Part shown: in pieces, positions 22,331 to 64,000 of the stretch | How the letters are laid out: each line of letters begins with the position of its first letter | Numbering within the stretch: the stretch's first letter is position 1 | Source: Diplolepis rosae | Taxonomy: Eukaryota > Arthropoda > Insecta > Hymenoptera > Diplolepididae | Assembly: GCA_030998225.1 (NCBI GenBank) | Contig: JAPYXD010000738.1 | Span: 248,001 to 312,000 of the forward strand | Direction of reading: 5' to 3' | Length of the DNA: 64,000 nucleotides | Notes under the pieces: model-generated | Database searches by the model: none | Seen by the model: the letters and a program-made list of their open reading frames with translations, nothing else | What the model was told of the DNA's origin: nothing | Position numbers and translations under genes: made by a program

Positions 22331-22625
22331 TGGGAACGAAGGACGATTCATGCTCGGACGCATGAAGGCGCATTCTTCGGTGGAGAACCGTCCGTCGCGC
22401 TACCTGTGCGCAACTCCAGGCTTTGGAGAACGCTGTGTGACTTCCTGTGCACAGGAAGGTCTGAATCTTCGCTGTTGCCATCCCTTGAAGATTGCTCGCA
22501 CTCAGAGGAAAATTCATGGCTATTCGTGGGCGTTCTCGGGAGTCCCGTTGTTCCTCGACGCCGCGAGAGCCGTTTCGCGATACAACATTCGGTCAGGCTC
22601 GGCCCTATCCGACCTACCGGGGCGC

Positions 22626-23120: not shown

Positions 23121-23129
23121 AGCTGGTTT

Positions 23130-23925
23130 TTTAGAAAGAGCCTCAACGCCCCTGTTTAATTTCCCCTGGTTGTATTCGAACTTATACTGGTAATCCTGGA
23201 CCCTTAGTCTCCATCGTAGGAGACGTGCTCCAGGGTTCTCAACATAGTTATCCAGTGGATAGGTTCGTAGTTATAAGCCGAAATAAATTCTTGGCCATAT
23301 AGGTCGGGGCGGAAATTCATAACCGTGTACCATACGGCGAGGCACTCTTCCTCGGCCTCAGGGTAACTTTGCTCGCAAGTGTTCATCGTTTTCGAGAAGT
23401 ACGCCACGGGCATATCTACTCCGTCTTTCTCTTGGGTCAATATTGCTCCGATCGCGTAATCGTAGGCATCCGTGGTATGTTTGAAGGTCTTCTGAAAATC
23501 TGGGTATAAGAGAATAGGCTCCCTACAAAGATACCTGCGAAGTCTTCTGAAGCTTCCCTTTTGGCTGTTTTCCCATTCCCATTTTACGTCCTTTTTGAGA
23601 AGGTCGGAGAGTGGTTTTGCCAATTCCGCGTAATCTTGGATGCATCTTCGTTAGTACCCAGAGAGCCCCAAGAACTGTCGGATTGCTCGCACGGTAGTGA
23701 GTCAGGGAAATTTCCTAATCGTGTTAATTTTAGCCGGGTTAGGTTTTACACCTTCGCGCCCGATGATGTGCTGTAGGTAGGCGACTTCCGTTCGTAAAAA
23801 GTCGCACTTGTCTGGTTGCAGTTTTAAATTAGCACTCCGCAGACGATCAAAGTCTTCTTGCCTTTTTATCATGTTTTTCGAGACTTTCTACATATACCAC
23901 AATGTCATCCAAATAGACACTTGCC
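23130..23925 (-). pseudogene. RT C-terminal half and RNase H of provirus C
   Basis: It starts abruptly at the catalytic YLDDIVVY motif (near 23905) and continues through LQPDKCDFL and QFLGLSGY to a Ty3-type RNase H (TTDAYDYAIGAIL, YPEAEEECLA). In-frame stops occur (for example near 23690 and 23645). Everything upstream of YLDD in the RT palm is missing: the frame before the junction still reads protease-linker sequence. An internal deletion at ~23925 thus removed the RT fingers and the first catalytic Asp. Confidence 0.8.
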
Positions 23926-24684
23926 ATCTTGAGCGGTGACGGCTGCTTCACCTATGTACAAGCCTTCTGGGGTATCAATTCTTGGCAGGTACCCTTGATG
24001 GATTTCCGAATTGGACACATCTATTGCAATGGGCTGCCTGGTTCTTGCTTTGATTTTCAAGATCCTGGCATAAGGCTTGATTTCCGATTAAAGGGCTTTG
24101 TTGGCTTGCTGTAATTTCGCGTCGACAAATGAAATCGGCGTGATAGGGTTGGATACGGTGACTAGAGTATTATGCCTAAATGAAATTTGTGCTTGCTCCT
24201 GCCGTAGGTATGGTTGTCCTAAGATCCCATCGGGTGGAATAGGGAGTTCGTTTCCTACGACGTGAAATTCCACAGGACTCTTGAAAATCGTGATTTTCCC
24301 TGTACCGATTGTTTTCACAGGCTCGTTGGTTATGCCGGTGATAAAGATAGAATTCAGGGGTTCGATAATCATATCCTGGCGTAAAGCGTGAAGTTTCACA
24401 AGATTCACGTCAGAACCTGGGTCAACCAGGAAGGTTGCCCTAGAACCTTGGAATTCGGAGGCAGTTAGTTCAACTACTGGTGAGTCTTCTTGGCTGCGTT
24501 CCGTTCGAAGGACCCTACGGAGATCTCCTGGAAGTGGACGGACTTGGGACGCTCTTGTATAGTTGAGTGATTCGTCACAGCGTCCGAGCGACGAGACGAC
24601 TGGGAGTTTAAAGCTCCTGATGGTCCTGGAGAGGCTGATCGGGGAGGAGTCATGCTTCCTGCAATTTTGCTTTGCCCTTGCCAC
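23926..24684 (-). pseudogene. Retroviral-type aspartic protease and linker (C)
   Basis: The frame at 24684-24088 carries FLVDPGSDVNLVK where an active protease has D-S/T-G; the Pro replaces that residue. ILGQPYL is the distal structural motif. The reading continues after a stop near 24088 with YLPRIDTPEGLYIGEA, homologous to the protease-RT linker of element B (58580-58690), until the deletion junction near 23925. Confidence 0.75.
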
Positions 24685-25553
24685 GACGAGTTGCCGGGTG
24701 ATTTTTGACCCTTTTCGACTGGTGGGTATTGCATCATGGCGGGATGAGGAGGATAAGGGTGGTGGGGTGGATATGGTTAGTTCGATGGGTATTGAGGAAA
24801 GGAATACGGATATTGAGACTGATAATTAGGTTGATAAGGAGGGTAAGACAAATGGTATTGACTGTACATGGATATGTACATTGGGGCCTGGTTTGTTGGA
24901 GTGCTAGGTCCTGTCATTGTTAAAGTTGTGCTTCCCTTTGAACTTGGCCTCTCGGATTTTACCTGCTTCTCCGAATGTTCCATTTGCTTTGAGAAGGGGC
25001 TTGGTGAGCGTTGCCGCTCTGACGCAAATTCTCTGCGATATGACAGAATGACGCGGCCTTTCTCGCTTTCTCCGTATACGTCTGTCGTTCTTCGGCATGG
25101 AGGGCGTGTTCAAATGCCTCGCTAAGATCTTTTGGAGTGCGGGTGTCGACAAAAATTGATATATCATCTGGTAGGCCCCTGATAAAGGCGTCTAAAGCAC
25201 AGTCGATTACTAACTTCATCATAATGGCGCTTTCCTTGGTGTGTCCATACGTGCCTGTATACTTTTCTTCTATCGCATGTCTAGCGCCACTCAAAAGGCC
25301 TTGTACACGATCGTTATAATCGCTCACGGTTTCCGATTGCTTCATCCGGAGGTTAATGATAGATTCGAAATACCATTGGTACTTTTTCGTCGGCGCGAAT
25401 CTTTACTTCAGGTGCGCTATTAGGTCCTTTACCCTAGAGAACTGTTTGTCGCGGACGCTTTCGCAAGCTACACCTTTGAGCTTGGCTAACACGGCCTTGA
25501 TGAAACCAGGTTCCGTAACGTCGGTGACAAATACTGCTCCGTTTGCGATATCC
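24480..25553 (-). pseudogene. gag of provirus C, N-terminally truncated
   Basis: The capsid-like reading starts at the element edge with IANGAVFVTDV and reaches LRMKQSETVSDYNDRVQGLL. It aligns in position with the segment of element B gag around LEELIEKLKRVYAP and ENVLSYAARIKE. A stop occurs near 25400, and later frames are broken before a Tyr/Pro/Gln-rich tail (near 24830). The N-terminus is absent because the element is cut at 25553. Confidence 0.7.
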
Positions 25554-44824: not shown

Positions 44825-45632
44825 TGTCACGTCCCGCGACGTATTTGAATTTATATAATACACACAGGCTGGATTGAGTTAAGAAATCTATGAGAAAACC
44901 GATAAAGGGAATAGGTAGTAGAGGAAGTAGGGAGCAGTATAGGGCCCCTTCTCCTCTAAGAAGATATGACTACGTCACGATTTTCGCTGACCGTCAATTT
45001 GTATAAAAAAATATAAAAGAGGCCCACACCAAGAGCAAGCAGTCAGTAAATTCTTCGTCTATTTCGACACTTAAATTTTCCTTCGGATTTATAACCGGTC
45101 TCGCGACAATAGTCCAGTGCGGCATTTCAATTTAACTTCGAAAATCTCTGAATTTGAGATTAATAAAATTCGACCGGGACAATTTAAAATCAAAGTTCGG
45201 GAGTCGTAAAAGTCATCGTGAACTTGTATAGATCTTTGTAAAGATCTTCGAACAGTGTCATAAATTTGGATCACCGCCCTTTACGGAATATACCTGTGCG
45301 GCCTATAACTACGTCTCTCTCACACACTTGGACTACACCTGCGGGGATCCAGTATTTACTACTCACCGCCGTGTGGATTAACCCTCAACATAAAGGTACC
45401 GAAGCCCTCTCTCTCTCTATCTTTATTCTTTGTCTCTTTCTCACCCACGTACCAACCAGCCTGTGCCTACATTATATAAGAATTGTCTTAACGAATGTAT
45501 ATCCGGAAATTTTAACCAGTAAAATAAATTCAATTTGTACTATTTTCATAATCATTGTGTCTTTCATTGACTTATCCTCATCCCTAAGCGAGGATCATTC
45601 GATCCTAACTTAAAACGAGGAATCTTCGATCA
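44825..45632 (+). repeat. 5' LTR of element A, 3' end deleted
   Basis: It starts TGTCACGTCCCGCGACG. It matches the other two LTRs up to CTTCGATCA (near 45632) and then jumps to leader sequence, so the last ~33-55 LTR bases and the primer-binding site are gone. It contains a CT-rich microsatellite near 45400. Confidence 0.9.
45012..45047 (+). promoter_or_regulatory. LTR core promoter: TATA box and TCAGT initiator
   Basis: TATAAAAG (45012-45019) and the arthropod initiator TCAGT (45043-45047) start 31 bp apart, ideal spacing for RNA polymerase II. The same pair is conserved at 52636/52667 and 54460/54491. Confidence 0.8.
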
Positions 45633-46671
45633 CACATTGATTATTTCTAGTGAATAAATAACTGATTATGAAATATTATTTCAACTTGTAACTTGAAATT
45701 TCAATAAAATAGATTTGTTAGATCACAAAGGGATTTGACGTTGAGGCTAACCTTAATGATTTAATAAACAATTCATTTTTTTGACATTTTATAATTTATA
45801 TAAATTGTATAAAATAAAATAAGTTTGAAAAATCACGCATGGATCTGACCTTGAGGCTAACCTAAGTGATTAAGTAACTTATCTTATTTCAAAAATTATT
45901 CTAATTTGTTAACTAAGTTTTGATTTAAGTTAAAACAAACAAAAAAAAACAGCACACGAGAGTATAAGTTCCTTTTGGGTACGTTGAACGGTCATCATTG
46001 ATTACGATCATTGGGTAGGGCAAAGTTCAAAGTGCTTGTGATTGTATTGTTTATAACTTTAATTTTAACTCTGTTAAGGAACAGAATATTTTTATTTGCA
46101 AAGATTGTCCAAGAATCTGAGCTTAAGCCTAACTTGTCCAGTCTAGAGAAAAATAAATTGTGCATAACTCGAATCTTATCTGATCCTTGTTATAAACAAT
46201 GTTATTTATTTAAAAAACAATTTATAATTCAATAAATTAATAAAATAGATCATTATAATTTACAAGACACACGTGGTTGGTATAAAATATATATATATAT
46301 ATATATTGTTATAATTTTAAGAAATGTATTATTTAACATTATAATTTTACGAAGATTGAGCGATTATTTATTTATTTGAGTATTTTATAGAAATATATTT
46401 TTATTTTATTATCTTATTTCCTAATGAAAGAGTAAAAATATTAATTATTGTTATAAACAAATAAAAATAATTAAATTATATTTTGAAATTATTATTATAA
46501 TTTTTTCTTTGAATTTTTATAAATTAAAATTATATTTTTACTAATTTCACTTTATTTACAAACAAAATGTTACATGTAGTTTTTCTAAATTGTTATAAAC
46601 AATCGATAATTAACAATAAATAATCTAAGATAACGCTCAACAAAAAGAAACTGTAAATTTATAATGACTCA
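45633..46671 (+). other. Leader of element A
   Basis: AT-rich 5' leader without a primer-binding site. It contains a direct repeat (GA..TTGAGGCTAACCT, near 45735 and 45850) shared with element B, and a TA microsatellite near 46288-46310. Confidence 0.7.
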
Positions 46672-48542
46672 ATGTCAAATTCAAATACCCTTGTAGAATC
46701 CGCCCAAAAAGTTATTACGCGTAGTAAAGCAAAACAAGACAATCAACTCGCAAAAATTGTCGATCAGAATCAAATAGATTCCTTGAAACTAAAAGGATCA
46801 GGTAAAATCAAAGAAAATTTAGTCGATTATAATAAATACAAGGATATTTCAAACACTTTTTCTGATGAACAAGAATTAGATAACACTCGTCAGCTAGACG
46901 ATTCACGTTTCGACAAGACTCTAATTAATGATCAAACCATATCAAGTGAAAATTCTAGTAAAACTAGCGGATTTCATTCAAGTTTCTGTCCAGATTTGAG
47001 CATTGTGACAGGATCTAGTAATCAAGATCAAACTTTAACGAACGAGTTATCTTATTTTGACGGATCTAATTTGCTAAGCTCAACGGTAATAACAATAGAA
47101 AATAGAACTTTGAAAGAAAAATTGAAAACCTCATTGGCACGCGACTCTCTAATTAGTAACAACGATAGCGACGACGACAAAAGCGATACAGAAGTCATAA
47201 ATCAGGATAATCCCGTAATAGTAAACAACGAAGAGATGGCCGTAGCCATACCTAACAGCTAGCAGGTATCCTTACGCGACGCGCTAGAGGTGGTCCCTTT
47301 GTTCGACGGAAGTAACCTCCCATTGTCCCATTTTATTGAGGGTTGCATGGAAGCAAAGGCAATGCTGCCGACACCTGCTGCCCAAGAAAATCTTGCACGT
47401 CTATTGAGAGGTAAATTGTCTGGTGAGGCACGAAAATGTATTTTTGGGTCAACGTATGCAACAATAGAAGAATTAATAGAAAAATTGAAAGAGTATATGC
47501 CCCTGCGCAAAGCGTATATCAATTGCAGGGAGAATTAGGTAATAAGTTTATGTGGGAAAGAGAAAATGTCCTTTCCTATGCTGCTAGAATTAAAGAAATT
47601 GCTGATAGAATAGAAGATGCTCACAGACTTAATAATGACGGTCAGGTAGATAATGCTTTTAAACAAAATTTAGAAAGAGATGTAATTCAATGTTTTATAC
47701 GCGGTTTGCGTCCTGAGTTAGAAATTCGTGTGGAAGAAAAGGACACATTTAAGGAAGTAATTAATGATACGATAGACATAGAACGAAGATTGGCTGCAAG
47801 TTCTGCACTGCGAAGAAATAAAAATACTGATTATTTAAAAACCGAAGAATCAACTAATAATAATAAAAATAATAAAACCACCCGATTCAACGTAGCACTT
47901 GAAAATAAAACTATTTGTTTAATTTGTAAAAAACCAGGTCACACAACTGAAATATGTTTTCATTTAAGTAAAGCTCAAGATGCAGTTCTTAACAATAAAC
48001 AAAAAAATTTTTTGCATCCTAACCAACAAGGATATAGTAATTTCAATGGTCAAAGAAGTAATAATAATAATAATTTTGCAAAAAACAATTACAATAATTT
48101 TCCAAATAACAATTTTTTAAGAAATAAAAATTATAATTTTAATAATAACAACAATCATTTTTTACAAAATAGAAATAATAATTATAAAAACAATAATAAT
48201 AATTTTTTACAACAAAGATATAACAATAATAATAATTTTCCTAGAAATTTTTACAATAATAACAATAATGTTAATAATACTAATAGACAATTGAATCCAG
48301 GACAGTATAAAAACTTTAACTCAGGACAGTTTCAAAATCGAAATAAACCATATGAAAATAGATTTTTACAAAATAATAACACTCAACAAAATTCAAATTA
48401 TACTGAAATAATTTGCAATTACTGTAAACAACCCGGTCATTTAGTACGAGACTGCAAGATACGACCAAATAACCAATCACAATCAGCTAATCAGGAAAAC
48501 TCCAAAGCTCTCCCCAGCACGGGTGCACTGAGGAAAGCATAA
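46672..48542 (+). pseudogene. gag of element A with nonsense and frameshift
   Basis: It is nearly identical to the intact gag at 56230. A TAG at 47260-47262 truncates it after IPNS (CAG in B), and a one-base deletion near 47490 shifts frame at LIEKLK. After this the capsid C-terminal part, an Asn-rich region and two CCHC zinc knuckles (CLICKKPGHTTEICF and CNYCKQPGHLVRDCK) are readable to the TAA at 48542. Not able to yield a normal Gag. Confidence 0.9.
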
Positions 48543-50856
48543 ATCGAGAACCACTGGCATCCACTTCTAACGATTCCAAAAAATACGAAAATTTATCATG
48601 GAAAACTATTACTACGAGAGCTCAAAAGAGAATACAACAAGAAAAAGCAAAAAATTTGAATGGAAATGAAATTCAAGAAAAATTAGACGAAAATTTTTCT
48701 TCTAAACCTCTTGTGAAAAAACCACGAGGTAGGCCAAGAAAAAATCTACTTACAAATTTGAAAAATACTCCCTCCCAAACAAAAAGAAAGAGAGGTAGAC
48801 CCAGAAAACAAATATATGAAGATGAATTACCAAAAATAAATATGAAAAAGGGAAGCCGAACAAAAGTAGAATCAGATTCCGACTCTGATCCTGAATATTT
48901 AGATTATTTGAAACTAACTCAAGCAAACAACAAAAAGAAGAAGAATGCCAAGAAGCCAAAAAATATTAATGAATTTGAAAGTGAAGAAAGTGAGAATTAT
49001 TTTTCAACCTCAGAAGATGAAATCAACGACATTGAAACCTCACACGAAGGAAATGATGGAGAAAATTATGAAGGAAATTGGGAAGAGAATTTTGACGATG
49101 ATTTTGAAGACGATTTTGAAAAGAATTTCGAACAGAATTTTGAAGAAAGTTTTGAAGACAATCTTGAGGAAAATTTTGAAGAGAAGTTTGAAAAAAACCA
49201 AGAAGAAAAATTGGAAGAAGAATTTGAAGAGCTTTATTTTGAAGAAAATTTGAGATTAAACCGAAGATCTCAAATAAATCCTGAAAAAATCGATAAAGAT
49301 CATGATAATTATAATCGTCCACCCCGAGAACCTCCTCCTATAAACTCTCAAACAGAAAAAATTATAAAAAAGAAAAATTTAGTTGAATGTCGCGATCAAT
49401 TAACTATGCGAAAAGATAATTATGCATATTTTGTTACAACAAATGGAACTCCTCGCGACAACGGATCAAAAACTTTAGAAAAACGTGAAACTTTACCAAA
49501 ATTTAAAAATTTACAAAAGGGAATAGCAAAAGAGATTAAAAAAGGAAACTACTACCATTTTGCACTTCCAATTGAAGAAGAAACTAAGGACAATTTATCA
49601 GAAACTTTAAATAATATAAAATTATCAATTCACTCATTACATGAATTATGTCAAAAACTTAAATTACGATCAATTAGTATTTCAAAAACTTCCAGAATTA
49701 ATCATATACCTTGGGAAGGAGTGAAATCAATTTTCGATACAATTTTTTCAAATTCAACTACAAAAATTATAGTTTGCAATGGAATAACGCAATATCCAAC
49801 AAAAGAACAACGAACTCATTTAATTGAAGAATCTCATTCTTCGGCATTAGGAGGCCATAAAGGCATTACAAAAACTTATAGCCGAATTCGCCAAAAAATT
49901 TTTTTGGGAAAATATGAAAGTAGACATTCAAAAATATATTCAAGGCTGTTTACAATGTCAACTGAACAAAATTAATCAGAGTCAAAACAAAATACCCTAT
50001 GGTAATCACTGACACACCCACTACTGCTTTTGAAAAAATATCAATGGACATTGTTGGTCCACTACCTGAAACAAAATCTGGTAACTTATATATTCTAACA
50101 ATACAAAACAATTTTACCAAATATTCTTTAGCAATACCTCTTCCTAATCACCAAGCCAGTACGATAGCAGATGCTTTCGTGAAAAAATGTATTTGCATAT
50201 TTGGATCACCGAAAGGAGTACTTTCTGACCAAGGCAGAGATTTTTTAAGTAATTTATTAAAAAGATTGGCAAAACGTTTTAGAATTAAACAATTTCGTAC
50301 CACAGCATTTCACCCTCAATCAAACGGGTTATTAGAACGTTCACATCATGTTTTAGGAGAATATCTCAATCAATTTGTTGCAAAAAATTCAGAATGGGAT
50401 GATTGGCTTGAACTAGCAATGTTCTCGTATAATACTAGTGTACATGAAGGCACAAAATGCACACCCTATGAATTGGTTTTTGGCAAATTAGCTCGTGAAC
50501 CTTCCAGCGAACCTTTATCACAACAAGAAAAATTACAAACGTATGATGATTATTTAATTAATTTCGTAACTCAACTACACGAAATGCGAAACCAAGCAAG
50601 AGAGAATCTTATTTCAGCAAAAGAAAAATCGAAAATATATTATGATAAAAAAATAAATCCTTTAGAAGTAAAAATTGGAGACAACGTATTTTTATTAAAA
50701 GGAGGAAAAATTAAAAAGCTGGATAATCAATACACAGGACCTCACGAAATTTTAGATGTACTAGGAAAAGGAAATGTAAAAATCAACTTAAAAGGAAAAC
50801 CGACAGTAGTTCACATCAATCGAATAAAAAGATCGCACATGAATATACAAAATTGA
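48543..50856 (+). pseudogene. pol remnant of A: AT-hook/acidic tether and integrase
   Basis: After gag, ~2.58 kb present in B (protease, RT, RNase H) is missing: sequence jumps near 48577 to KYENLSWKTITT. The frame from ~48578 to 49975 carries two AT-hooks (PRGRPRKN, KRGRPRKQ), an acidic EENF-type region and the integrase zinc module (SHSSALGGHKG). A one-base gain in a T-run near 49905 breaks the frame. The DDE core continues from 49999 to 50856: Asp in SMDIVGPLP, Asp in LSDQGRDF, Glu in LLERSHHVL, then a YTGPHEIL GPY/F-type motif. Confidence 0.88.
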
Positions 50857-52447
50857 TTAACTGAATTTGAATCCAAACCTAAAATAATATAAACTTTGCA
50901 TACAACCAAAGCGTTTAGAATAACTAAACCAGGAAATGTTTTAAACAAAAGATCTTTTGAAATTTTATTCTAATCTTATTTTTTCTATTTCAGAGATTCG
51001 AGAAGCTCACTGTACCTTCAAATACAAATCAAAAAATTTCAATATATTTCGTGCCTTTTTTTCAGAGTAAATTAAACTTCTCAAACTAGCAAGTATCTAT
51101 CAAATTAATCAAAAATGTTTAAATTTCTCTTCTGTTCAGCAAAAACTAATAATCCAATATCATCACAGAGAAATTATATTTCATTAAAATTCTTATGTGT
51201 AATTTCTTTGCATTTAATTTAATCAATTTTATTTTTGTTCACCAACCTTTCAAAAAACAAACTAATAACCTTTTTAGAAATACAAATGCTAGTTTTCATT
51301 CGAGTCAACATTATATTTTATCACTTAAAGAAAAATATAGAAATATTTGTATTTTTCTTCTTTTTTGGATGAAAAAAAAGACTTTTTCTGACAAGAATAA
51401 ATAAGCACTTCTTAATCGGTGCCATCATAAATATAATTTCAATTTTGTTTTTTCTTCCATCAAGGGAACTTTTCTTGATTCCCATCCTATTGGAAGAACA
51501 GTTTCTACATATATTGAGTCTGTAAATGTATACTATGCGATGGAGTTACAAAATTGTTAATGTAAAAATTGCTTTTCCAATAGAAATTAATGTGCAACAA
51601 TAACAAATTGAATAATTACTATTCTTCATATGTTTCATGCACAAATAACTGTATTAATTTTACAAGAAAGATTAGAAAAACAATTAAAAGTACAAGAATT
51701 GTAGGAAAATCTATTACGCTGTGATTATGTAAAATTGTTTTTCTTACGATTATTTTATTCATTTAATAATACACCAATGAAATTGAAGTTCATGAAATTA
51801 ATTTTTAGAAGCATGTAAAAGTAATAATAAGCAATAGCTATGCCATGTTTTGAAGAAATCAATTTTATACTTAACCAAGTTTTTTCTCTTCAATGTACCA
51901 AGTTACAACGTCTATTAATTAATATATGTTATCAACGATCTAAATATTATTTTTAATCTGTATTATCAATATTATATATGTCAATTTCTCTTTTTACTAA
52001 TGTATACATAAACCATCGTAATACTTGTAAACTGCTCTTTACTATTTTATATCTAATCGATGAAATTTTACAATTTTTAATCTTCTTTTTATCAACAATC
52101 ATCATGTTGTAAGTTTAAATAGTTATTATCAATCAAAGAAAAAATTGTTAAATTACCTAGTCACCGCTATAACATATGTAATCAATGATTGTAATATTTC
52201 CAGACTTGTATCCTCCGTTATTACTATGCATTTATGTAAAACTTGTTATAAATTTTTAATTCGCAACAATAATTGAAAATGTCAATTCCTATAATTATGT
52301 ATAAACAAAATTTTTATATTATAAATTGGCAAATTAAATTAAAAATATGTACTTGATTGAGTAAGCATCTTGGATTAAAAATGTTTTCTTCTACCGAAGT
52401 TTCGATCGCGGATCGTTAACTCCCCGCGCTCGAACTGAGGGGGGAGG
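50857..52447 (+). other. 3' noncoding region of element A
   Basis: There is no CARD and no recognisable env. A splice-acceptor-like TTTTTTCTATTTCAG ends near 50993. Multiple stops fill all plus frames. It may hold the outer 3' end of an env gene whose body was deleted. A polypurine tract GAGGGGGGAGG (52437-52447) lies directly before the 3' LTR. Confidence 0.55.
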
Positions 52448-53287
52448 TGTCACGTCCCGCGACGTTTTTGAATGTATATAATACACACAGGCTGGATTGA
52501 GTTAAGAAATCTATAAGAAAGTCGATAAAGGGGAATAGGGAGTAGGGGAAGTAGGGAGCAGTATAGGGCCCCTTCTCCTCTAAGAAGATATGACTACGTC
52601 ACGATTTTCGCTGACCGTCAATTTGTATAAAAAAATATAAAAGAGGCCCACACCAAGAGCAAGCAGTCAGTAAATTCTTCGTCTAGTTCGACACTTAAAT
52701 TTTCCTTCGGATTTATAACCGTTCTCGCGACAATAGTCCAGTCCGGCATTTCAATTTAACTTCGAAAATCTCTGAATTTGAGATTAATAAAATTCGACCG
52801 GGACAATTTAAAATCAAAGTTCGGGAGTCGTAAAAGTCATCGTGGACTTGTATAGATCTTTGTAAAGATCTTCGAACAGTGTCATAAATTTGGATCACCG
52901 CCCTTTACGGAATATACCTGTGCGGCCTATAATTCCGTCTCTCTCACACACTTGGACTACACCTGCGGGGATCCAGTAATTACTACTCACCGCCGTGTGG
53001 ATTAACCCTCAACATAAAGGTACCGAACCTCTCTCTCTCTATCTTTATTCTTTGTCTCTTTCTCACCCACGTACCAACCAGCCTGTGCCTACATTATATA
53101 AGAATTGTCTTAACGAATGTATATCCGGAAATTTTAACCAGTAAAATAAATTCAATTTGTATTATTTTCATAATCATTGTGTCTTTCATTGACTTATCCT
53201 CATCCCTAAGCGAGGATTATTCGATCCTAACTTAAAACGAGGAATCTTCGATCAAAGTAAGTATATTTCCGTACTTGTGACGTAACA
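52448..53287 (+). repeat. 3' LTR of element A (840 bp)
   Basis: TGTCACGTCCCGCGACG ... GTGACGTAACA. It is complete, with TATA box at 52636, TCAGT at 52667, and AATAAA-type sequence in the R/U5 part near 53146. It differs from the 5' LTR at a modest number of sites, so insertion is not very recent. Confidence 0.92.
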
Positions 53288-54272
53288 ATACTGTAACTTT
53301 CTTAAATTTATTTTAATTGCAAAATATTATCAGGATAATTAGTAGAGATTTACGAGAATTATCAGAAAACAGTCTTAAAAGTTTTGATTTTTTCATAAAG
53401 TTCTTTTCAACAACACAAAAAATGCTCCTATTTTGACAATTTTTGTCGGATGTAGCTGGTTAACGAACTTGCCTTTACTTTTTCAGCTGCGATAATGTAT
53501 GCATAAGCTCAATTCAATCCGACAATTTTTTTCTATCCAGAGTTATCGAGTATATGACCTATTACTACTGCAGACGGACAGACAGACAGACAGACAGACA
53601 CTTTCGTAAAAATCGTTTTTTCTGACTCAGGGGATCTCAAAACGTAAAGATTTGACGAAAATTCCGAAAATTATTGTTCACATAAAACCAAAACCTTAAT
53701 TCTCATATGATGAGAATTTAAAAGACATCAAATTTAGATCTTTCTTAATAATATTATTAACTCTAAAATTAATTAACATTGTCAAAAGTCTGTAGTCTCA
53801 TTTCAAAGGTAAGTTTTCATAGTATTTTTCTAACTAATTAAGATGTTTTTGGAATTTTTCTGCTGGATTCTGCTTTAGAATCAAAGATGGTAATGAAAAA
53901 TCATCAAATTTCAAATGATGATTGTACTACATTCATTTGAAGAATTCAAAAAATCCAAACTATCAATATTTTGATAAAAATTTCTAAATTTATTAAAATA
54001 TGATGTACATCGATTTTTAAAAACTTCTTGAAGAAGCTACATATTTTAAAAATTGCATGACTTTTTTGAATTCTGTTCAACCTCAAGATAGAATCCAGGA
54101 AAGAATTTCTAAAAATATTTTGATTAGGTTTAGAAATCACTATGAAGACATACTGAAAAAACCTTTTGAAATCTAAATCTAAATTAAAATTTCTTTTGTA
54201 ATATCTTTCTATAAAATAAAACACTTTGACGAAAGTTGAAACTCCAGGTCAATCTGTAATTTCCGATGGTAG
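53288..54272 (+). mobile_element. Copy 3 distal interior and start of its far arm
   Basis: 53288-53750 matches 8480-8920 (including a GACA microsatellite at 53577-53600). 53790-54272 matches the arm at 8940-9160 and 38440-38690. The arm is cut at 54272 by element B. This gives copy 3 an inverted arm at each side of its interior, supporting a transposon with very long TIRs. Confidence 0.7.
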
Positions 54273-55126
54273 TGTCACGTCCCGCGACGTATTTGAATGT
54301 ATATAATACACACAGGCTGGTTTGAGTTAGAAATCTATGAGAAAATCGATAAAGGGGAATAGGGAGTAGGGGAAGTAGGGAGCAGTATAGGGCCCCTTCT
54401 CCTCTAAGAAGATATGACTACGTCACGATTTTCGCTGACCGTCAATTTGTATGAAAAAATATAAAAGAAGCCCACACCAAGAGAAAGCAGTCAGTAAATT
54501 CTTCGTCTAGTTCGACACTTAAATTTTCCTTCGGATTTATAACCGGTCTCGCGACAATAGTCCAGTGCGGTATTTCAATTTAACTTCGGAAATCTCTGAG
54601 TTTGAGATTAATAAAATTCGATTGGGACAATTTAAAATCCAAGTTCGGGAGTCGTAAAAGTCATCGTAGACTTGAATAGATCTTGTAAAGATCTTCGAAC
54701 AGTGTCGTAAATTTGAATCGCCGCCCTTTACGGAATATACCTGTGCGGCCTATAACTCCGTCTCTCTCACACACTTGGAATACACCTGTGGGGATCCAGT
54801 ACTTACAACTCACCGCCGTGTGGATTAAACCTCAACACAACTTACGAATCATAAAGGTACCGTCCCTCTCTCTCTCTATCTTTATTCTTTGTCTCTTTCT
54901 CACCTACGTACCAACCAGCCTGTGCCTACGTTATATATATAAATTGTCTTAACGAATGTATATCCGAAAATTTTAACCAGTGAAATAAATTCAATTTGTA
55001 TTATTTTCATAATCATTGTGTCTTTCATTGACTTATCCTCATCCCTAAGCGAGGATCATTCGATCCTAACTTAAAACGAGGAATCTTCGATCAAAGTAAG
55101 TATATTTGCGTACTTGTGACGTAACA
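54273..55126 (+). repeat. 5' LTR of element B (854 bp)
   Basis: TGTCACG ... GTAACA. Core promoter TATAAAAG at 54460 and TCAGT at 54491. A CT-rich microsatellite lies near 54862-54905. Near its 3' end GTAAGT (55096-55101) is a consensus splice donor that would lie in the genomic RNA leader. LTR ends are fixed by comparison with element A. Confidence 0.92.
55096..55101 (+). promoter_or_regulatory. Candidate splice donor in the LTR
   Basis: AAA|GTAAGT matches the donor consensus and lies downstream of the predicted start site, so it could feed the acceptors before the CARD (63226) and env (63649) ORFs. It is lost from the 5' LTR of element A. Use in vivo is inferred, not shown. Confidence 0.4.
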
Positions 55127-55140
55127 TACTTCCTTTTTTC

Positions 55141-55159
55141 TGGTGCATCGGCCCGGGAA
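55141..55159 (+). promoter_or_regulatory. Primer-binding site, tRNA-Gly type
   Basis: TGGTGCATCGGCCCGGGAA begins 15 bases after the LTR end. Its first 13 bases complement the CCA-bearing 3' end of a typical insect tRNA-Gly, and the remainder matches with one extra C. This would prime minus-strand DNA synthesis. Confidence 0.7.
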
Positions 55160-56229
55160 ACACAAGTCAATTGAAAATTAACGCATTGATTATTTCTAGT
55201 GAATAAATAAATGATTATGAAATATTATTTCAACTTGTAACTTGAAATTTCAATAAAATAGATTTGTTAGATCACAAAGGGATTTGACGTTGAGGCTAAC
55301 CTTAATGATTTAATAAACAATTCATTTTTTTGAAATTTTATAATTTATATAAATTGTATAAAATAAAATAAGTTTGAAAAATCACGCAGGGATCTGACCT
55401 TGAGGCTAACCTAAGTGATTAAGTAACTTATCTTATTTAAAAAATTATTCTAATTTGTTAACTAAGTTTTGATTTAAGTTAAAACAAACAAAAAAAACAG
55501 CACACGAGAGCATAAGTCCCTTTTGGGTACGTTGAACGGTCACCATTGATTACGATCATTGGGTAGGGCAAAGTTCGAAGTGCTTGTGATTGTATTGTTT
55601 ATAACTTTGATTTTAACTCTGTTAAGGAACAGAATATTTTTATTTGCAAAGATTGTCCAAGGATCTGAGCTTGAGCCTAACTTGTCCAGTCTAGAGAAGA
55701 ATAAATTGTGCATAACTCGAATCTTATCTGATCCTTGTTATAAACAATTTTATTTATTTAAACAAAAAAAAAAACAATTTATAATTTATTAATTTAATAA
55801 CATAGATTATTATAGTTTACAAAAGACACACGTGGTTGGTACAAAATAAATATACATATATATATATATATTGTTATAATTTTAACAAATGTTTTATTTA
55901 ACATTATAATTTTACAAAAAAATTTGAGCGATTATTTATTTATTTGAATGTTTTATAGAATTATATTCTCATTTTGTTATTTTATTTCCCAATAAAAGAG
56001 TACAAATTTTAATTTTGTTATAAACAAATAAAAATAATTAAATAATTATTATTAATATCATTTTTATGATTGGTTTTAAACTAAAATTATACTTTTACTA
56101 ATTTCACTTTATTAACAAACAAAATTTTACATGTAGTTTTTTAAAATTGTTATAAACAATTGATAATTAACAATAAATAATCTAAGATAACGCTCAATAA
56201 AAGGGAAACTGTAAAATTATAATGACTCA
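55160..56229 (+). other. Leader of element B with direct repeat
   Basis: AT-rich 5' leader. Two ~45-bp units (55266-55310 and 55379-55425) share GAGGCTAACCT and flank A/T-rich sequence. A TA tract lies near 55852-55870. An ATG at 56222 opens a ten-codon upstream ORF overlapping the gag start. Confidence 0.65.
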
Positions 56230-58098
56230 ATGTCAAATTCAAATACCCCTGTAGAATCCGCCCAAAAGGTTATCACACGTAGTAAAGCCAAACAAGATAA
56301 CCAACTCGCAAAAATTGTGGATCAGAATCAAATAGATTCCTTGAAACTAAAAAGATCAGGTAAAATCAAGGGAAATTCAGTCGATAATAAATACAAAGAT
56401 ATTTCAAACCCTTTTCCTGCTGAACAAGAATTAGATGACACTCTTCAGCTAGACGATTCACGTTTTGACAAGACGCTAATTAATGATCAAAGCATATTAA
56501 GTGAAAATTCCAGTAAAACTAGCGGGTTTCATTCAAGTTTTTGTCAAGATTTAAGCATTGTGACAGGATCTAGTAATCAAGATCAAACTTTAACGAACGA
56601 ATTATCTTATTTTGACGAATCTAATTTGCTAAGCTCAACGGTAATAACAATAGAAAACAAAACTTTGAAAGAAAAATTGAAAACCTCATTGGCACGCGAC
56701 TCTCTAATTAGTAACAACGATAGCGACGACGACAAAAGCGATACAGAAGTCATAAATCAGGATAATCCCGTAATAGTAAGCAACGAAGAGATGGCCGTAG
56801 CCATACCTAACAGCCAGCAGGTATCCTTACGCGACGCGCTAGAGGTGGTCCCTTTGTTCGACGGAAGTAACCTCCCATTGTCCCATTTTATTGAGGGTTG
56901 CATGGAAGTAAAGGCAATGCTGCCGACACCTGCTGCCCAAGAAAATCTTGCACGTCTATTGAGAGGTAAATTGTCTGGTGAGGCACGAAAATGTATTTTT
57001 GGGTCAACGTATGCAACAATAGAGGAATTAATAGAAAAATTGAAAAGAGTATATGCCCCTGCGAAAAGCGTATATCAATTGCAGGGAGAATTAGGTAATA
57101 CGTTTATGTGGGAAAGAGAAAATGTCCTTTCCTATGCTGCTAGAATTAAAGAAATTGCTGATAGAATAGAAGATGCTCACAGACTTAATAATGACGGTCA
57201 GGTAGATAATGCTTTTAAACAAAATTTAGAAAGAGATGTAATTCAATGTTTTATACGCGGTTTGCGTCCTGAGTTAGAAATTCGTGTGGAAGAAAAGGAC
57301 ACATTTAAGGAAGTAATTAATGATACAATAGACATAGAACGAAGATTGGCTGCAAGTTCTGCACTGCGAAGAAATAAAAGTACTGATTATTTAAAAACCG
57401 AAGAATCAACTAATAATAATAAAATTAATAAAACCACCAGATTCAACGTAGCACTTGAAAATAAAACTATTTGTTTAATTTGTAAAAAACCAGGTCACAC
57501 AACTGAAAAATGTTTTCATTTAAGTAAAGCTCAAGATGCAGTTTTTAATAATAAACAAAAAAATTTTTTGCGTCCTAACCAACAAGGATATAGTAATTTC
57601 AATGGTCAAAGAAGTAATAATAATAATAATTTTGCAAGAAACAATTACAATAATTTTCCGAATAACAATTTTTTAAGAAATAAAAATTATAATTTTAATA
57701 ACAATAACAATAATAATCTGCAAAATAGAAATAATAATTATAAAAACAATAATAATAATTTTTTACAACAAAGATACAACAATAATAATAATTTTCCTAT
57801 AAATTTTGACAATAATAACAATAATGTTAATAATACTAATAGACAATTGAATCCAGGACAGTATAAAAACTTTAACTCAGGACAGTTTCAAAATCGAAAT
57901 AAACCATATGAAAATAGATTTTTACAAAATAATGACACTCAACAAAATTCAAATTATACTGAAATAATTTGCAATTACTGTAAACAACCCGGTCATTTAG
58001 TACGAGACTGCAAGATACGACCAAATAACCAATCACAAACAGCTAATCAGGAAAACTCCAAAGCTCTCCCCAGCACGGGTGCACTGAGGAAAGCATAA
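56230..58098 (+). CDS. gag: Gag polyprotein, intact (622 aa)
   Basis: Structural protein of the particle. The N-terminal ~190 residues are Ser/Asp-rich (DSDDDKSDTEV). A capsid-like helical region follows (SLRDALEVVPLFDGSNLP, residues ~198-215; ENVLSYAARIKEIADRIED, ~300). Near the C-terminus two CCHC zinc knuckles bind RNA: CLICKKPGHTTEKCF (~414-428) and CNYCKQPGHLVRDCK (~580-594), separated by a strongly Asn-rich stretch. The ATG at 56230 is the first in frame. The stop at 58096-58098 overlaps an open -1 frame leading into protease, consistent with frameshift expression of pol. No lesion seen. Confidence 0.92.
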   Translation: MSNSNTPVESAQKVITRSKAKQDNQLAKIVDQNQIDSLKLKRSGKIKGNSVDNKYKDISNPFPAEQELDDTLQLDDSRFDKTLINDQSILSENSSKTSGFHSSFCQDLSIVTGSSNQDQTLTNELSYFDESNLLSSTVITIENKTLKEKLKTSLARDSLISNNDSDDDKSDTEVINQDNPVIVSNEEMAVAIPNSQQVSLRDALEVVPLFDGSNLPLSHFIEGCMEVKAMLPTPAAQENLARLLRGKLSGEARKCIFGSTYATIEELIEKLKRVYAPAKSVYQLQGELGNTFMWERENVLSYAARIKEIADRIEDAHRLNNDGQVDNAFKQNLERDVIQCFIRGLRPELEIRVEEKDTFKEVINDTIDIERRLAASSALRRNKSTDYLKTEESTNNNKINKTTRFNVALENKTICLICKKPGHTTEKCFHLSKAQDAVFNNKQKNFLRPNQQGYSNFNGQRSNNNNNFARNNYNNFPNNNFLRNKNYNFNNNNNNNLQNRNNNYKNNNNNFLQQRYNNNNNFPINFDNNNNNVNNTNRQLNPGQYKNFNSGQFQNRNKPYENRFLQNNDTQQNSNYTEIICNYCKQPGHLVRDCKIRPNNQSQTANQENSKALPSTGALRKA

Positions 58099-59141
58099 AT
58101 CGAGAACCACTGGCATCCACTTCTAACGATCATACAACAACAACAATAAATATTTCAAAGTCCACTTCAATTCCATCAATTATAATATCAACGGAAGGTC
58201 TAAAAAATCCAACACACATGATGATTGATACTGGTGCTGCTCGAAATTTAATTAAACAAAAGGTTCTCAACCCTGAACTACCCATAAATAGCCAAAACGT
58301 ATTGAAACTTACAGGAATTAATGATTTACCACTTTACACGTTAGGACAGGTAAAAATAAACATTTTTGGTTATCCAACGATATTTAACATTATTCCGAAT
58401 GAAGTCCCAGTAGAAGAAGATGGAGTATTAGGATCAGAATTTTTTCAAGATAATAGTGTGAATATAAACTATACTTCAAAATGCTTAGAAATTGAGAACC
58501 ACTGTTACCCTTTTAAATCTGCCAATACATTTACTATTCCAGCTCGAACAGTTACAACATTTTATGTTAATATAAAAAATACAGAAAAAAGTGAAGGGTA
58601 TGTACCTCGATTACATATCCAAGATGGCGTCTACGTAGGTGACGCAGTTGTAAAAAATCACAGAGGAAAAGCTTATTTAAAATTTGCAAACACAAATGAA
58701 ATCCCAATTACATTATCCGTCCCATTAGTTAATTTAGAAGACTTTGAAGAACAAGAATGTTATAAACAAATTGAAAATTTAATTACTTTCAAACAAACAA
58801 ATAACGAAGATTTATCAAGTAAGATATTAAATAACTTTTTAAAGACTGACAATTCTCTAATTGACTCATGCAAATTTTATAATGTAACAGACGAAGACAG
58901 AGTAGAATGTATTAAAAAACTTCTTCGATTAGACCACTTAAATCAAGATGAATATGAACATGTAGAAAAATTAATTAAAAATAATGCAGACAGATTTCAA
59001 ATCCCAGGAGAACCACTTGAAGCTACTAATGTATTACAACATTCAATTCCTACTGTAGATGACGCTCCAATTTTTCAAGACAATATAGATTTCCCCCAGT
59101 TCACAAGGAAGAAATTACAAGACAAGTCGATGAATTATTAA
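58083..59141 (+). CDS. Aspartic protease and RT-proximal linker
   Basis: This open frame lies -1 relative to gag and overlaps its end; the first Met is at 58218. It carries the catalytic MIDTGAARNLI (D-T-G) and the distal VLGSEFF, the pepsin-like retroviral protease signature. A linker follows with GYVPRLHIQDGVYVGDAVV, a region conserved in element C. It ends at a TAA (59139-59141) while the RT reading has already begun in another frame near 59075, so protease and RT are not in one frame in this copy. Confidence 0.85.
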   Translation, partial: TEESINREPLASTSNDHTTTTINISKSTSIPSIIISTEGLKNPTHMMIDTGAARNLIKQKVLNPELPINSQNVLKLTGINDLPLYTLGQVKINIFGYPTIFNIIPNEVPVEEDGVLGSEFFQDNSVNINYTSKCLEIENHCYPFKSANTFTIPARTVTTFYVNIKNTEKSEGYVPRLHIQDGVYVGDAVVKNHRGKAYLKFANTNEIPITLSVPLVNLEDFEEQECYKQIENLITFKQTNNEDLSSKILNNFLKTDNSLIDSCKFYNVTDEDRVECIKKLLRLDHLNQDEYEHVEKLIKNNADRFQIPGEPLEATNVLQHSIPTVDDAPIFQDNIDFPQFTRKKLQDKSMNY

Positions 59142-62100
59142 AAAATAAAATAATCAAGCCCTCACAATCACCATATAACACTCCAGTGTGGATAGTTCCT
59201 AAAAAACCTGATTCCCAAGGAAAAATAAAATGGAGAATGGTTCTTGATTTTCGTAAATTAAATGAAAAAACAATTGGCGATTCGTATCCTTTACCTAATA
59301 TAAACGATATACTTGATTCTCTAGGATCAGCAAAATATTTTTCAGTGTTTGATTTAGCTACCGGTTTTCACCATATAAAAATGGACCCAAAAGACTCACA
59401 TAAAACCGCATTTTCTACACCTCACGGTCATTACGAATTCGATAGAATGCCTTTCGGTTTGAAAACTGCACTAGCCACATTTCAAAGATTGATGGATTTA
59501 ACATTAACTGGATTAATCGGAACGGAACTTTTTGTATATCTTGATGACATAGTTATATATGCAAATACTCTAGAAGAGCACGAAATTAAATTCAACAATT
59601 TAGCAGAAAGACTTAGAAAAGCAAATCTTCACTTACAACCAGACAAATGCGAATTTTTACGACCTGAAGTAGGATATTTAGGTCATATAATTGATAAAAA
59701 TGGAGTACGTCCAGATCCAAAAAAGATAATAGCTGTAAAAAAGTTTCCAGTCCCAAAAACACAGAAAAATGTTAAACAATTTTTAGGCTTAGCAGGATAT
59801 TATAGACGATTTATTGATGGATTTTCAAAAATTGCAAGTCCTTTAAATCAACTTCTAAAAAAAGATATACCTTTTAATTGGACAGAAAAACAACAAGCAG
59901 CTTTCGAAATTTTAAAAGCAAAATTATGTGAAGAACCACTTTTACAACGACCTGATTTTTCTCAACCCTTTATACTCACAACAGATGCCTCAGGATTTGC
60001 AATAGGAGGTATTTTATCACAAGGTAAAATAGGTAAAGATAAACCAATAGCATATGCTTCACGTAGTCTAAGTGATACTGAGAAAAAATATGATACATAT
60101 GAAAAAGAAGCCCTTGCTATAATATTTTGTGTAACTCATTTTCGTCCTTATTTGTATGGAAGAAAATTTACCTTAGTGACTGATCACAAACCTCTAGTTT
60201 GGTTTCAAAATTCTAAAGACCCGTGTTCACGAGTATCACGTTGGAGATTAAAACTCGCAGAATATGATTTTGATGTAATTTACAAAGCAGGAAAAATGAA
60301 TGTAAATGCAGATGCTCTCTCAAGAAACCCTATTGATGATAGCCAGGAAAAATCAAAATATTTACAAGTTGATGACAATGATACTTTCATGACTTCTAAA
60401 GAAAAAACGTTTTCCAAGAAAACTTTTACAAGAAATAAACAAGAAAACTCTAAAAATAAGGTAAGACCTTTAAAACGAAAAAACTTGAATCCAGGAATGG
60501 TACCAGACGACGTAGATCATTTTAGCGAAATTCCAGAAGCCCAAATATTAAATATTCACACAAAAATTCCAGAATTTTTACAAGAATTCCTTAGTGAAGA
60601 ATCATTTAGTGAGATTGGTAAGAATATTTTAAAATACACAAATTTATTCAAAAATATGGCTTTAAGACTTATTTTTATGACAATATGTTTATTAAGTCCA
60701 ATGTTTTCAAAAAAATACGAAAATTTATCATGGAAAACTATTACTACAAGAGCTCAAAAGAGAATAGAGCAAGATAAAGCAAAAAATATGAATCGAAATG
60801 AAACTCAAGAAAAATTAGACGAAAATTTTTCTTCTAAACCTCTTGTGAAAAAATCACGAGGTAGGCCAAGAAAAAATCTACTTACAAATTTAAAAAATAT
60901 CCCCTCCCAAACAAAAAGAAAGAGAGGTAGACCAAGAAAACAAATATTTGAAAACGAATTACCAGAAATAAATATGCAAAAGCGAAGCCGAACGAAAGTA
61001 GAATCAGATTCCGACTCTGATCCTGATTATTTAGATTATTTGAAACAAACTCAAGCAAAAAACATAAAGAAGAAGAAGAATGCCAAGAAGCCAAAAAATA
61101 TTAATGAATTTGAAAGTGAAGAAAGTGAAGAAAGTGAGAATTATTTTTCAACCTCAGAAGATGAAATCAACGACATTGAAACCTCACACGAAGGAAACAA
61201 TGAAGAAAATTATGAAGAAAATTTGGAAGATAACTTTGAAGAAGATTTTGACGAAAATTTCAAAAAGAATTTTGAACAGAATTTTGAAGAACATTTTGGA
61301 GACGATCTTGAGGAAAATTTTGAAGAGAAGTTTGAAGAAAACCAAGAAGAAAAATTGGAAGAAGAATTTGAAGAGCCTTATTTTGAAGAAAATTTGAGAT
61401 TAAACCGAAGATCTCAAATAAATTGTGAAAAAATCGATAAAGATCATGATAATTATAATCGCCCACCCCCAGAACCTCCTCCTATAAACCCTCAAACAGA
61501 AAAAATTATAACAAGGAAAAATTTAGTTGAATGTCGCGATCAATTAACTATGCGAAAAGATAATTATGCATATTTTGTTACAACAAATGGAATTCCTCGC
61601 GACAACGGATCAAAAACTTTAGAAAAACGTGAAATTTTACCAAAATTTAAAAATTTACAAAAAGGGATAGCAAAAGAGATTAAAAAAGGAAACTACTACC
61701 ATTTTGCACTTCCAATTGAAGAAGAAACTAAAGACAATTTATCCGAAACATTAAATAATATAAAATTATCAATATACTCATTACATGAATTATCTCAAAA
61801 TCTGAAGTTACGGTCAATTAGTATTTCTAAAACTTCTAGAATTAATCATATATTTTGGGAAGAAGTGAAATCAATTTTTGACTCAATTTTTTCAAATTCA
61901 ACTACAAAAATTATAGTTTGCAATGGAATAACGCAATATCCAACAAAAGAACAACGAACTCATTTAATCGAAGAAGCTCATTCTTCAGCATTAGGAGGCC
62001 ATAAAGGCGTCACAAAAACTTATAGTCGAATTCGCCAGAAATTTTTTTGGGAAAATATGAAAGTAGACATTCAAAAATATATTCAAGGCTGTTTACAATG

Positions 62101-62998
62101 TCAACTGAAAAAATTAATCAGAGTCAAAACAAAAAATCCTATGGTAATCACAGACACACCCACTACTGCTTTTGAAAAAATATCAATGGACATTGTTGGT
62201 CCACTACCTGAAACAAAATCTGGTAACTTATATATTCTAACGATACAAGACAATTTTACCAAATATTCTTTAGCAATACCTCTTCCTAATCACCAAGCTA
62301 GTACAATAGCAGATGCTTTTGTGAAAAAATTTATTTGCATATTTGGATCACCAAAAGGAGTACTTACTGACCAAGGCAGAGATTTTTTAAGTAATTTATT
62401 AAAAAGATTGGCAAAACGTTTTAGTATTAAACAATTTCGTACCACAGCTTTTCACCCTCAATCAAACGGATCATTAGAACGTTCACATCATGTATTAGGA
62501 GAATATCTCAAACAATTTGTTGCAAAAAATTCAGAATGGGATGATTGGCTTGAACTAGCAATGTTCTCGTATAATACTAGTGTACATGAAGGCACAAAAT
62601 GCACACCCTATGAATTGGTTTTTGGTAAATTAGCTCGTGAACCTTCCAGCGAACCTTTATCACAACAAGAAAAATTACAAACGTATGATGATTATTTAAT
62701 TAATTTCGTAACTCAACTACACGAAATGCGAACACAAGCAAGAGAGAATCTTATTTCAGCAAAAGAAAAATCGAAAATATATTATGATAAAAAAATAAAT
62801 CCTTTAGAAGTAAAAATTGGAGACAACGTATTTTTATTAAAAGGAGGTAAAATAAAAAAACTAGAGAACCATTATACAGGGCCTTATGAAATATTGGAAG
62901 TGTTAGGAAAAGGGAATGTCAAAATAAGCTATAAAGGCAAACCTACTGTAGTTCACATTAATAGACTAAAACGCTCACACGTACAAGTACAAAAGTAG
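59075..62998 (+). pseudogene. pol: pol: RT, RNase H, AT-hook/acidic tether, integrase; separated by frame break from protease
   Basis: Residue numbers start at 59186. RT: WRMVLDFRKLNE, FDLATGFHHI (catalytic Asp), YLDDIVIY (~117). RNase H: TTDASGFAIGG (~266), YEKEALA, VTDHKPL, NVNADALSR (~373). A long insertion follows with two AT-hooks (SRGRPRKN ~558, KRGRPRKQ ~581), a Lys-rich then Glu/Phe-rich acidic repeat (~660-740). Integrase: AHSSALGGHKG ... GCLQCQ zinc module, MDIVGPLP, LTDQGRDF, LERSHHVL (D, D, E), and a YTGPYEIL GPY/F-type motif (~1229). All catalytic residues are present over 1270 codons without a stop. The 1-base discontinuity near 59070-59085 from the protease frame is the visible defect. 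Confidence 0.9.
60850..61420 (+). other. AT-hook and acidic-repeat insertion in pol
   Basis: Between RNase H and integrase lie two RGRPRK AT-hooks, a basic linker (KKKKNAKKPKN) and an array of 6-14-residue units of the type EENFEE/EDNFEE. AT-hooks bind the minor groove of AT-rich DNA and could steer integration to AT-rich chromatin; that is inference. In C the corresponding place holds an RNASEH1-like domain. Confidence 0.75.
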
Positions 62999-63000
62999 AT

Positions 63001-63231
63001 AAATAAAAAAAAAAAAAAATATATAACAAACAAAATATCTTTACTTTAATTATAAAAAATATGTATACATATACAATTTAAATAAAATATAGAAATTTTA
63101 TTTTGTCGATAAATGGTAAAAATAAAAAAAAATAAATAAAAATATACATATATAAAATTTATATAAAAATATATATTTTATATAAAAAATATATACAACA
63201 AATTTAGACATAACACATTATTCCAGATATA
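63001..63231 (+). other. pol-CARD junction with splice acceptor
   Basis: A/T-rich 230 bases without an ORF. CATTATTCCAG (ending 63226) is a splice-acceptor-like sequence five bases before the CARD ATG, though its pyrimidine tract is weak. Confidence 0.45.
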
Positions 63232-63513
63232 ATGGATCAAATTCATCGCAAACGCATAGATGATCTCATTGAAATAGTTCCCTGTTTTATCGACATGGTA
63301 GCTCTCTGGCCATACTTAATTCAAACTGGAATTTTTAACCAAGACGACTGTAATATTCCCACATGGAGCAAAAACCTAAACAATCCAGATACAATAAAAG
63401 ACATTTTTTCAACAATCAAAACAAGAGGACCAGACGCATACAAAAACTTGATTATCAGTTTACGCCTATCAGATCATATTGTCATAGCTGACATGTTGGA
63501 TATTATAGACTAA
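63232..63513 (+). CDS. CARD-domain protein encoded by the retroelement (93 aa)
   Basis: The whole 93-codon ORF reads as one caspase-recruitment domain of the death-fold superfamily. It opens MDQIHRKRIDDLIEIVP (helix 1), continues through PYLIQTGIFNQDDC (helices 2-3), a polar loop, NPDTIKDIFSTIKTRGPDAYK (helix 4 and the hallmark RGP-x-A before helix 5), then LIISLRLSDHIVIADML (helices 5-6). Length equals a stand-alone CARD. Such domains mediate CARD-CARD contacts among initiator caspases, apoptosome adaptors and innate adaptors. The frame is intact, base composition matches the element, and it lies between integrase and env with a nearby splice acceptor. Its role, perhaps blocking host cell death, is inference. 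Confidence 0.82.
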   Translation: MDQIHRKRIDDLIEIVPCFIDMVALWPYLIQTGIFNQDDCNIPTWSKNLNNPDTIKDIFSTIKTRGPDAYKNLIISLRLSDHIVIADMLDIID

Positions 63514-63651
63514 GTACATAAAATAAAAAACTTAATAAAAAAAATATATATGTATACAACAGTAATAACAAAATTGTTTATTAAGTAATTTTATTCATTC
63601 TTTTTTTTTTTTACAAAGCAAGCTGCTAATTGGAACCTCCTTTTTCCAGAG
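63514..63651 (+). other. CARD-env junction with splice acceptor
   Basis: Contains a 12-base T-run near 63601 and CCTCCTTTTTCCAG (ending 63649), a strong polypyrimidine-AG acceptor two bases before the env ATG. This supports a separate spliced env mRNA. Confidence 0.6.
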
Positions 63652-64000
63652 ATGGGATTACGAGGCTTCCTTTTGGCACTGCTCATTTGCAAATTCAACT
63701 ATATAACAACAGTCTACGCCATCATAGGATTCGATTGCGGTTCAAATCAATCAAATATTACGACATTATCTTTACTAGAGGTAGGAGAATGTGATCTACC
63801 TCGATCTCAAGTACATGTTGAAAGAGTTTATATACAACTTTTACAATTAACTGGATTTTCAAATACAAAAGTAATACAATGCAAAATAGAAATTCGACGC
63901 ACCATCTCTCATTGTGGTATGCATTCTCACAGTTCCATAGTTGCAAATGGCCACAGTGAATATATACATGATGTTACACGAGATCAATGTAATCAAATGC
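63652..64000 (+). CDS. env: Envelope-like glycoprotein, chuvirus-type (partial, 5' end)
   Basis: The ATG at 63652 opens a frame with no stop to the window end (116 codons). Residues 1-23 form a signal peptide (hydrophobic GFLLALLIC, small residues at YA). The mature start has FDCGSNQSNITT, two N-glycosylation sequons (residues 32 and 35) and a regular Cys series (29, 47, then in IQCKIEI and ISHCGMHSH). This pattern resembles glycoproteins of chuviruses (jingchuviruses), which insect LTR elements are known to have captured, rather than the F-type envelope of element C. The C-terminal anchor lies outside the window. Family call is by eye. Confidence 0.62.
   Translation, partial: MGLRGFLLALLICKFNYITTVYAIIGFDCGSNQSNITTLSLLEVGECDLPRSQVHVERVYIQLLQLTGFSNTKVIQCKIEIRRTISHCGMHSHSSIVANGHSEYIHDVTRDQCNQM

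Follow-up and report, generated by a model that had tools for sequence, protein, structure and literature searches.

We analysed a 64,000-nucleotide stretch of the Diplolepis rosae genome (contig JAPYXD010000738.1, positions 248,001 to 312,000; hereafter the window) and found that a short open reading frame (ORF) near its 3′ end is a CARD-only (caspase recruitment domain) accessory gene. It belongs to a large Ty3/gypsy-type element that has long terminal repeats (LTRs), carries an envelope, and was active recently. The assignment draws on Pfam, profile searches, a predicted fold, genomic copies, and the comparison of nonsynonymous with synonymous differences (pN/pS). The ORF occupies 63232..63513 on the plus strand (93 codons and a stop), flanked by the integrase end of a pol ORF (59186..62998) and by a glycoprotein ORF starting at 63652, and coding stops where the CARD ends, with no protease domain, as in a stand-alone CARD of about 90 amino acids. 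Its G+C content is 35%, compared to 10% upstream and 21% downstream, making it a coding island in AT-rich spacers. A preliminary description of this DNA had placed a 93-codon ORF here, between integrase and envelope, and both the ORF and its placement are confirmed by the coordinates. The adjoining envelope is not of the errantiviral F type: the neighbor is a Monjiviricetes (chuvirus-like) fusion protein, and an F-type ORF lies further 3′.

Sequence and predicted fold of the CARD

Relatives of the protein were collected in three overlapping protein searches, listing 53, 60, and 119 proteins from several lineages, many of them exactly 93 amino acids long. In Pfam, CARD (PF00619) was the sole match to the window copy, at E 0.001 and 19.5 bits, below the curated cut-off of 23.9 bits, and designed helical repeats and proteins were matched first by both the single sequence and the close-relative profile. 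These two observations weigh against a CARD and are those expected if the ORF encoded some other helical bundle. Against this, the divergent relatives P0072 (26.6 bits) and P0075 (26.7 bits) exceed the cut-off and carry the family as a whole past the curated threshold, and Pfam CARD was found at E up to 1 in 30/54 close relatives and in 46/52 full-length relatives. A three-lineage profile searched against PDB returned Dronc first (E 0.0029), and a 52-member profile returned CED-3 (E 0.0023), Dronc (E 0.0024), and then caspase-9. Initiator caspases account for 10 of the 13 PDB rows of the wider profile, alongside NLRC4, RAIDD, and a xylanase. Adaptor CARDs such as those of Apaf-1, Dark, or CED-4 are absent from the 13. 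The prodomains of Dronc, CED-3, and caspase-9 are the best profile matches over nearly the whole length of the CARD, indicating that it is initiator-caspase-like by sequence.

The predicted fold agrees with this assignment. An AlphaFold model built from a deeper alignment is a six-helix bundle (helices at residues 3-18, 22-31, 42-47, 52-64, 67-79, and 83-92; pLDDT, the predicted local distance difference test score, 80.6), and fold searches with this model are led by CARDs, with MAVS first in Foldseek. In BFVD, a cod iridovirus CARD was the first match and equine herpesvirus 2 E10 was also returned. An earlier model made with fewer relatives was poor and close relatives alone failed to support the fold; the fold evidence needed relatives wider than the close family. 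By profile and predicted fold, the 93-amino-acid ORF is a CARD, and a helical bundle of another kind is very improbable. The identity put forward in the preliminary description is, thus, upheld by Pfam matches in relatives, by the wide-profile PDB matches, and by structure prediction, with both the profile and the structure checks returning what a CARD would give. No match to the ORF was found in NCBIfam. PHROGs returned none for the window ORF or for P0054 and two weak families of no known function for P0057, while IMG/VR and prokaryote contigs held no relatives of the CARD, the integrase, or the glycoprotein.

Copies and selection

The genome search covered 757.7 Mb and gave 1,166 candidate places for the CARD protein, the best 150 of which were scored, a choice that favors intact copies. 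Among these 150, at least 63 full-length copies, including the window's own, are 100% identical, and 141 places have no in-frame stop. A chance ORF was excluded because of these scored places and 53 database relatives. The CARD DNA is identical to that of the window in 18/19 plus-strand loci among the first 30, and searching with P0057 added further subfamilies, 57 to 98% identical to that query. Integrase upstream together with glycoprotein downstream was found at 29/30 loci of the window type, 25/30 of the P0057 type, and 10/20 others, using parts of the window's own flanking genes as queries against short flanks, where misses may reflect either divergence or loss. Diverged subfamilies keep the CARD in place. 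A 243-amino-acid ORF with double-stranded RNA (dsRNA)-binding motifs, described below, gave 1,598 candidates in the genome, of which 150 were scored; with 101 of those 150 rows used for the co-location count, it lies at a near-fixed downstream distance on the same strand in 47 of the 63 identical-CARD copies.

Selection was assessed over 91 codons in 21 pairs chosen from 78 open sequences, the pairs sharing sequences and so not being independent. In 20 of the 21 pairs pN was below pS (Fisher p of 0.0019 or less). The ratio of the corresponding substitution rates, dN/dS, was 0.06 to 0.22 in 13 pairs, a range also spanned by the six least diverged of them (dS 0.19 to 0.71), and saturation of dS left seven pairs with no ratio. 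The exception was the pair L062/L066, with four changes and a dN/dS of 0.76. In a weaker, protein-only test, 31/93 columns were invariant across seven lineages (17/100,000 under a uniform null), and when sites were weighted by within-family changes, P was 0.147, 0.035, or 0.0063 depending on the pseudocount. Private changes fell on columns invariant between lineages as often as on others (47/133 and 19/54), a sequence pattern indicating that copies drift after insertion.

Such drift would be expected if the ORF were a mere passenger, a functionless exon that the element had picked up from a host, but dN/dS is low in the usable pairs and, across several subfamilies, the gene sits at a constant place in most of the loci examined. 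The passenger reading was rejected on the pN/pS contrast and the constant position, and we consider it scarcely credible. Because the gene is kept in place in diverged subfamilies and pN lies far below pS, these comparisons indicate that it is under purifying selection as a maintained accessory gene, and purifying selection between lineages combined with drift after insertion indicates that selection operates during the active phase of the element, as it would on a functional gene. Conservation in other copies of the family, without which the initial proposal would have had little to stand on, is evident in the identical copies, in the subfamilies, and in pN/pS.

Proposed function, origin, and expression

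Since the CARD is caspase-like and not adaptor-like, its simplest use would be to occupy the CARD of the adaptor and so exclude Dronc from the apoptosome. In this mechanism, the protein would take the place of Dronc on the CARD of a host adaptor of the Dark/Apaf-1 type, Dronc would then not be activated, and particle-making cells, or germ cells receiving particles, would survive. A dominant-negative decoy role is plausible from the sequence, and we regard as evenly balanced the more specific proposal that the CARD-only protein, as a decoy of the initiator-caspase type, fills the apoptosome adaptor of the host and thereby prevents Dronc from being activated. Position 56, presumably the counterpart of the arginine of caspase-9 that contacts Apaf-1, is K or R in 7/7 lineages, but positions 13 and 52 are basic in none.

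The fold searches also return signaling CARDs, MAVS foremost, as well as E10 of equine herpesvirus 2, an NF-kappaB activator. These matches would suit a signaling activator that enters a CARD assembly of the host and sets off signaling, either caspase-dependent or innate, from which the element benefits, such as through proliferation of the cell or through Dronc activity of a non-apoptotic kind in germ cells, but a lone CARD has no effector domain and the sequence profile points to initiator caspases, making an activator unlikely. CARDs can polymerize, and the gene is present in many copies, most of the examined ones linked to the element, as might be expected if the fold were used inside the element, such as in a self-assembling scaffold for particles or RNA handling with no host CARD partner. 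This use is rather improbable given the similarity to a specific CARD subgroup and the place of the gene among the accessory ORFs of the 3′ part.

The target of a decoy could also be a host CARD other than Dark, either Dronc itself or an uncharacterized wasp CARD protein. Belonocnema kinseyi, a gall wasp, has uncharacterized proteins of this CARD family (P0082, P0091, and P0092, several isoforms of one gene), and P0082 and P0091 would be in keeping with such a target. However, these proteins may be element-derived, and a target other than Dark is, in our view, improbable. The Belonocnema kinseyi proteins may be either domesticated copies of the element or the donor gene. In the protein letters, as distinct from DNA, P0090 reads through an apparent phase-0 intron within its CARD, at a point that P0082 crosses without interruption, and P0119 and P0121 to P0123, all short proteins, begin near the apparent intron point of P0090. 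Because of this contrast between P0090 and P0082, we infer that the element took its CARD from the spliced host mRNA of a CARD gene. Proteins of the P0082/P0090 type could themselves be element-derived, and the genome searches made did not find a host donor gene.

Splice-like signals suggest how the gene may be expressed. The sequence GTAAGT at 55096..55101 (plus strand), in the 3′ part of the LTR, is the only GTRAGT in 54201..64000 and a candidate splice donor. The splice-acceptor-like sequence that had been reported upstream of the CARD is present at 63213..63226 (plus strand), its CAG ending at 63226, 5 nucleotides before the ATG. A CAG lies close before the CARD ATG in 19/19 plus-strand loci among the first 30 and in 23/25 further loci shown, the exceptions being L064 and L078, and is about 13 nucleotides away in L071 to L073. 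A better acceptor-like site, at 63636..63649 (plus strand), lies 2 nucleotides before the glycoprotein ATG and is present in sister copies. In five relatives with upstream-extended frames, picked by pattern, the acceptor site is covered by HII(P/S)DIM in four and by HVSPDIR in the fifth. These signals suggest that the CARD would be made from spliced RNA joining the LTR donor to the acceptor just before its ATG.

The element and comparable systems

The 5′ LTR of the element spans 54273..55126 on the plus strand (TGTCACG...GTAACA), and about 7 kb past the window end, on the window's own contig, lies the start of the 3′ LTR (window-equivalent 71134; G000:C410:319134). The two LTRs differ by 1 mismatch in the 367 bp compared, and the element is young; assuming LTRs of equal length, it measures about 17.7 kb. 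A candidate primer-binding site at 55141..55153 (plus strand) resembles the 3′ end of tRNA-Gly. It is followed on the plus strand by a gag-like ORF of 622 amino acids with a zinc knuckle (56230..58098), a 307-amino-acid ORF without a Pfam match (58218..59141) whose DTGA motif is presumably aspartic-protease-like, and the pol ORF, which contains reverse transcriptase, RNase H, an acidic/AT-hook stretch, and integrase. The Pfam matches of this ORF are to reverse transcriptase, RNase H, and integrase. The approximately 540 residues between RNase H and integrase (60302..61921), unusual for pol, include AT-hook matches and a stretch of acidic residues encoded by a 12-base repeat.

The intact glycoprotein ORF runs on the plus strand from 63652..64000 in the window to window-equivalent 65682 and matches Pfam Monjiviricetes_fusion at E 2.6e-38 for the in-window part and at E 1.1e-232 over residues 50-650 of 653 for the part fetched. 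Downstream of it lie the 243-amino-acid ORF with two stretches of dsRNA-binding motif (window-equivalent 65694..66425; E 6.9e-13) and a 111-amino-acid ORF with a weaker motif (66463..66798; E 0.0017, below cut-off), both of which (L031:1894-2998) are candidate suppressors of RNA silencing. A 593-amino-acid ORF at window-equivalent 67108..68889 (L031:3308-5089) matches Baculo_F (PF12259; E 2.1e-17). Not the neighbor of the CARD, it gives the window copy another envelope ORF within its LTRs, unrelated to the first, and provides the F-type (baculovirus F-like) envelope that marks the errantivirus/Env-F clade. This F-type part could conceivably come from a nested insertion, but no LTR of the family was seen between the window end and 71134. 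Near the 3′ LTR is a 135-amino-acid ORF without a significant Pfam family (window-equivalent 69229..69636; L031:5429-5836).

A second copy of the family, with an internal deletion, occupies 44825..53287 (plus strand), with LTRs at both ends and a 4-bp flanking duplication, ATAC. No CARD was found in it by tblastn, and its 3′ part has no DNA-level match to the glycoprotein region of the window copy. The approximately 1.6 kb between its integrase and 3′ LTR (50853..52447) is unlike CARD or glycoprotein; its matches to the 3′ part of the CARD-bearing copy are limited to a single 40-bp stretch and the final 71 bp. A decayed LTR-type element on the minus strand (18005..25345) has an integrase and a fragmented baculovirus-F-type envelope, and likewise showed no CARD by tblastn.

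Several known systems share features with this element. Initiator caspases, the closest in sequence, have a protease domain that the element gene lacks. Iridovirus CARD-only proteins (GIV-CARD and those of cod iridovirus and lymphocystis virus) are likewise stand-alone CARDs of about 91 to 95 amino acids, although iridoviruses are large DNA viruses, unlike an LTR element, and the cod iridovirus fold match is weak (11% identity, Foldseek E 1.0). GIV-CARD of grouper iridovirus is reported in PMC4457926 as an inhibitor of apoptosis, showing that caspase-9 activity can be lowered by a viral CARD on its own; it is likened there to human ICEBERG, whereas the element CARD is nearest Dronc, CED-3, and caspase-9. 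Errantiviruses and other insect endogenous retroviruses with Env-F, such as ZAM, also carry gag, pol, and envelope between LTRs and share the Baculo_F ORF, but the present element differs in its size of about 17.7 kb and in having a Monjiviricetes-type glycoprotein beside a CARD. Their Env is made from spliced RNA according to PMC12992720, in which a term search found no mention of accessory genes, additional ORFs, or apoptosis. Captured Monjiviricetes-type glycoproteins, as in the CARD element, are known from BEL/Pao Anakin, with a chuvirus-like glycoprotein as envelope (PMC7642597), and from gypsy elements with type III glycoproteins mentioned in legends of PMC13172572, while PMC10084718 describes no clear glycoprotein capture by gypsy. 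Term searches of the main text of PMC10084718 and PMC13172572 found no mention of caspases, and among literature titles and abstract openings, an incomplete coverage that does not establish absence from print, no CARD gene in an LTR element was found.

The usual description of envelope-carrying LTR elements in insects is gag-pol-env. That the CARD gene has been maintained indicates selection on this element to engage the cell-death or CARD-signaling machinery of its host. We would give an even chance to its being an invertebrate 'complex retrovirus', in which one young LTR element would combine gag-pol, an anti-apoptosome caspase-prodomain mimic, two fusion glycoproteins unrelated to each other, and dsRNA-binding proteins that might dampen RNA silencing, and in which the CARD and a dsRNA-binding gene would have multiplied jointly, in many copies, within one wasp-like genome. 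The CARD may help the element keep host cells alive, which raises the question of whether an element moving between soma and germline must do so, and the adjoining dsRNA-binding ORFs suggest a second front, against silencing. Together, these genes would make a natural system for studying how elements and hosts conflict outside the piRNA pathway, and the CARD itself would be a natural probe of the Dark-Dronc interface.
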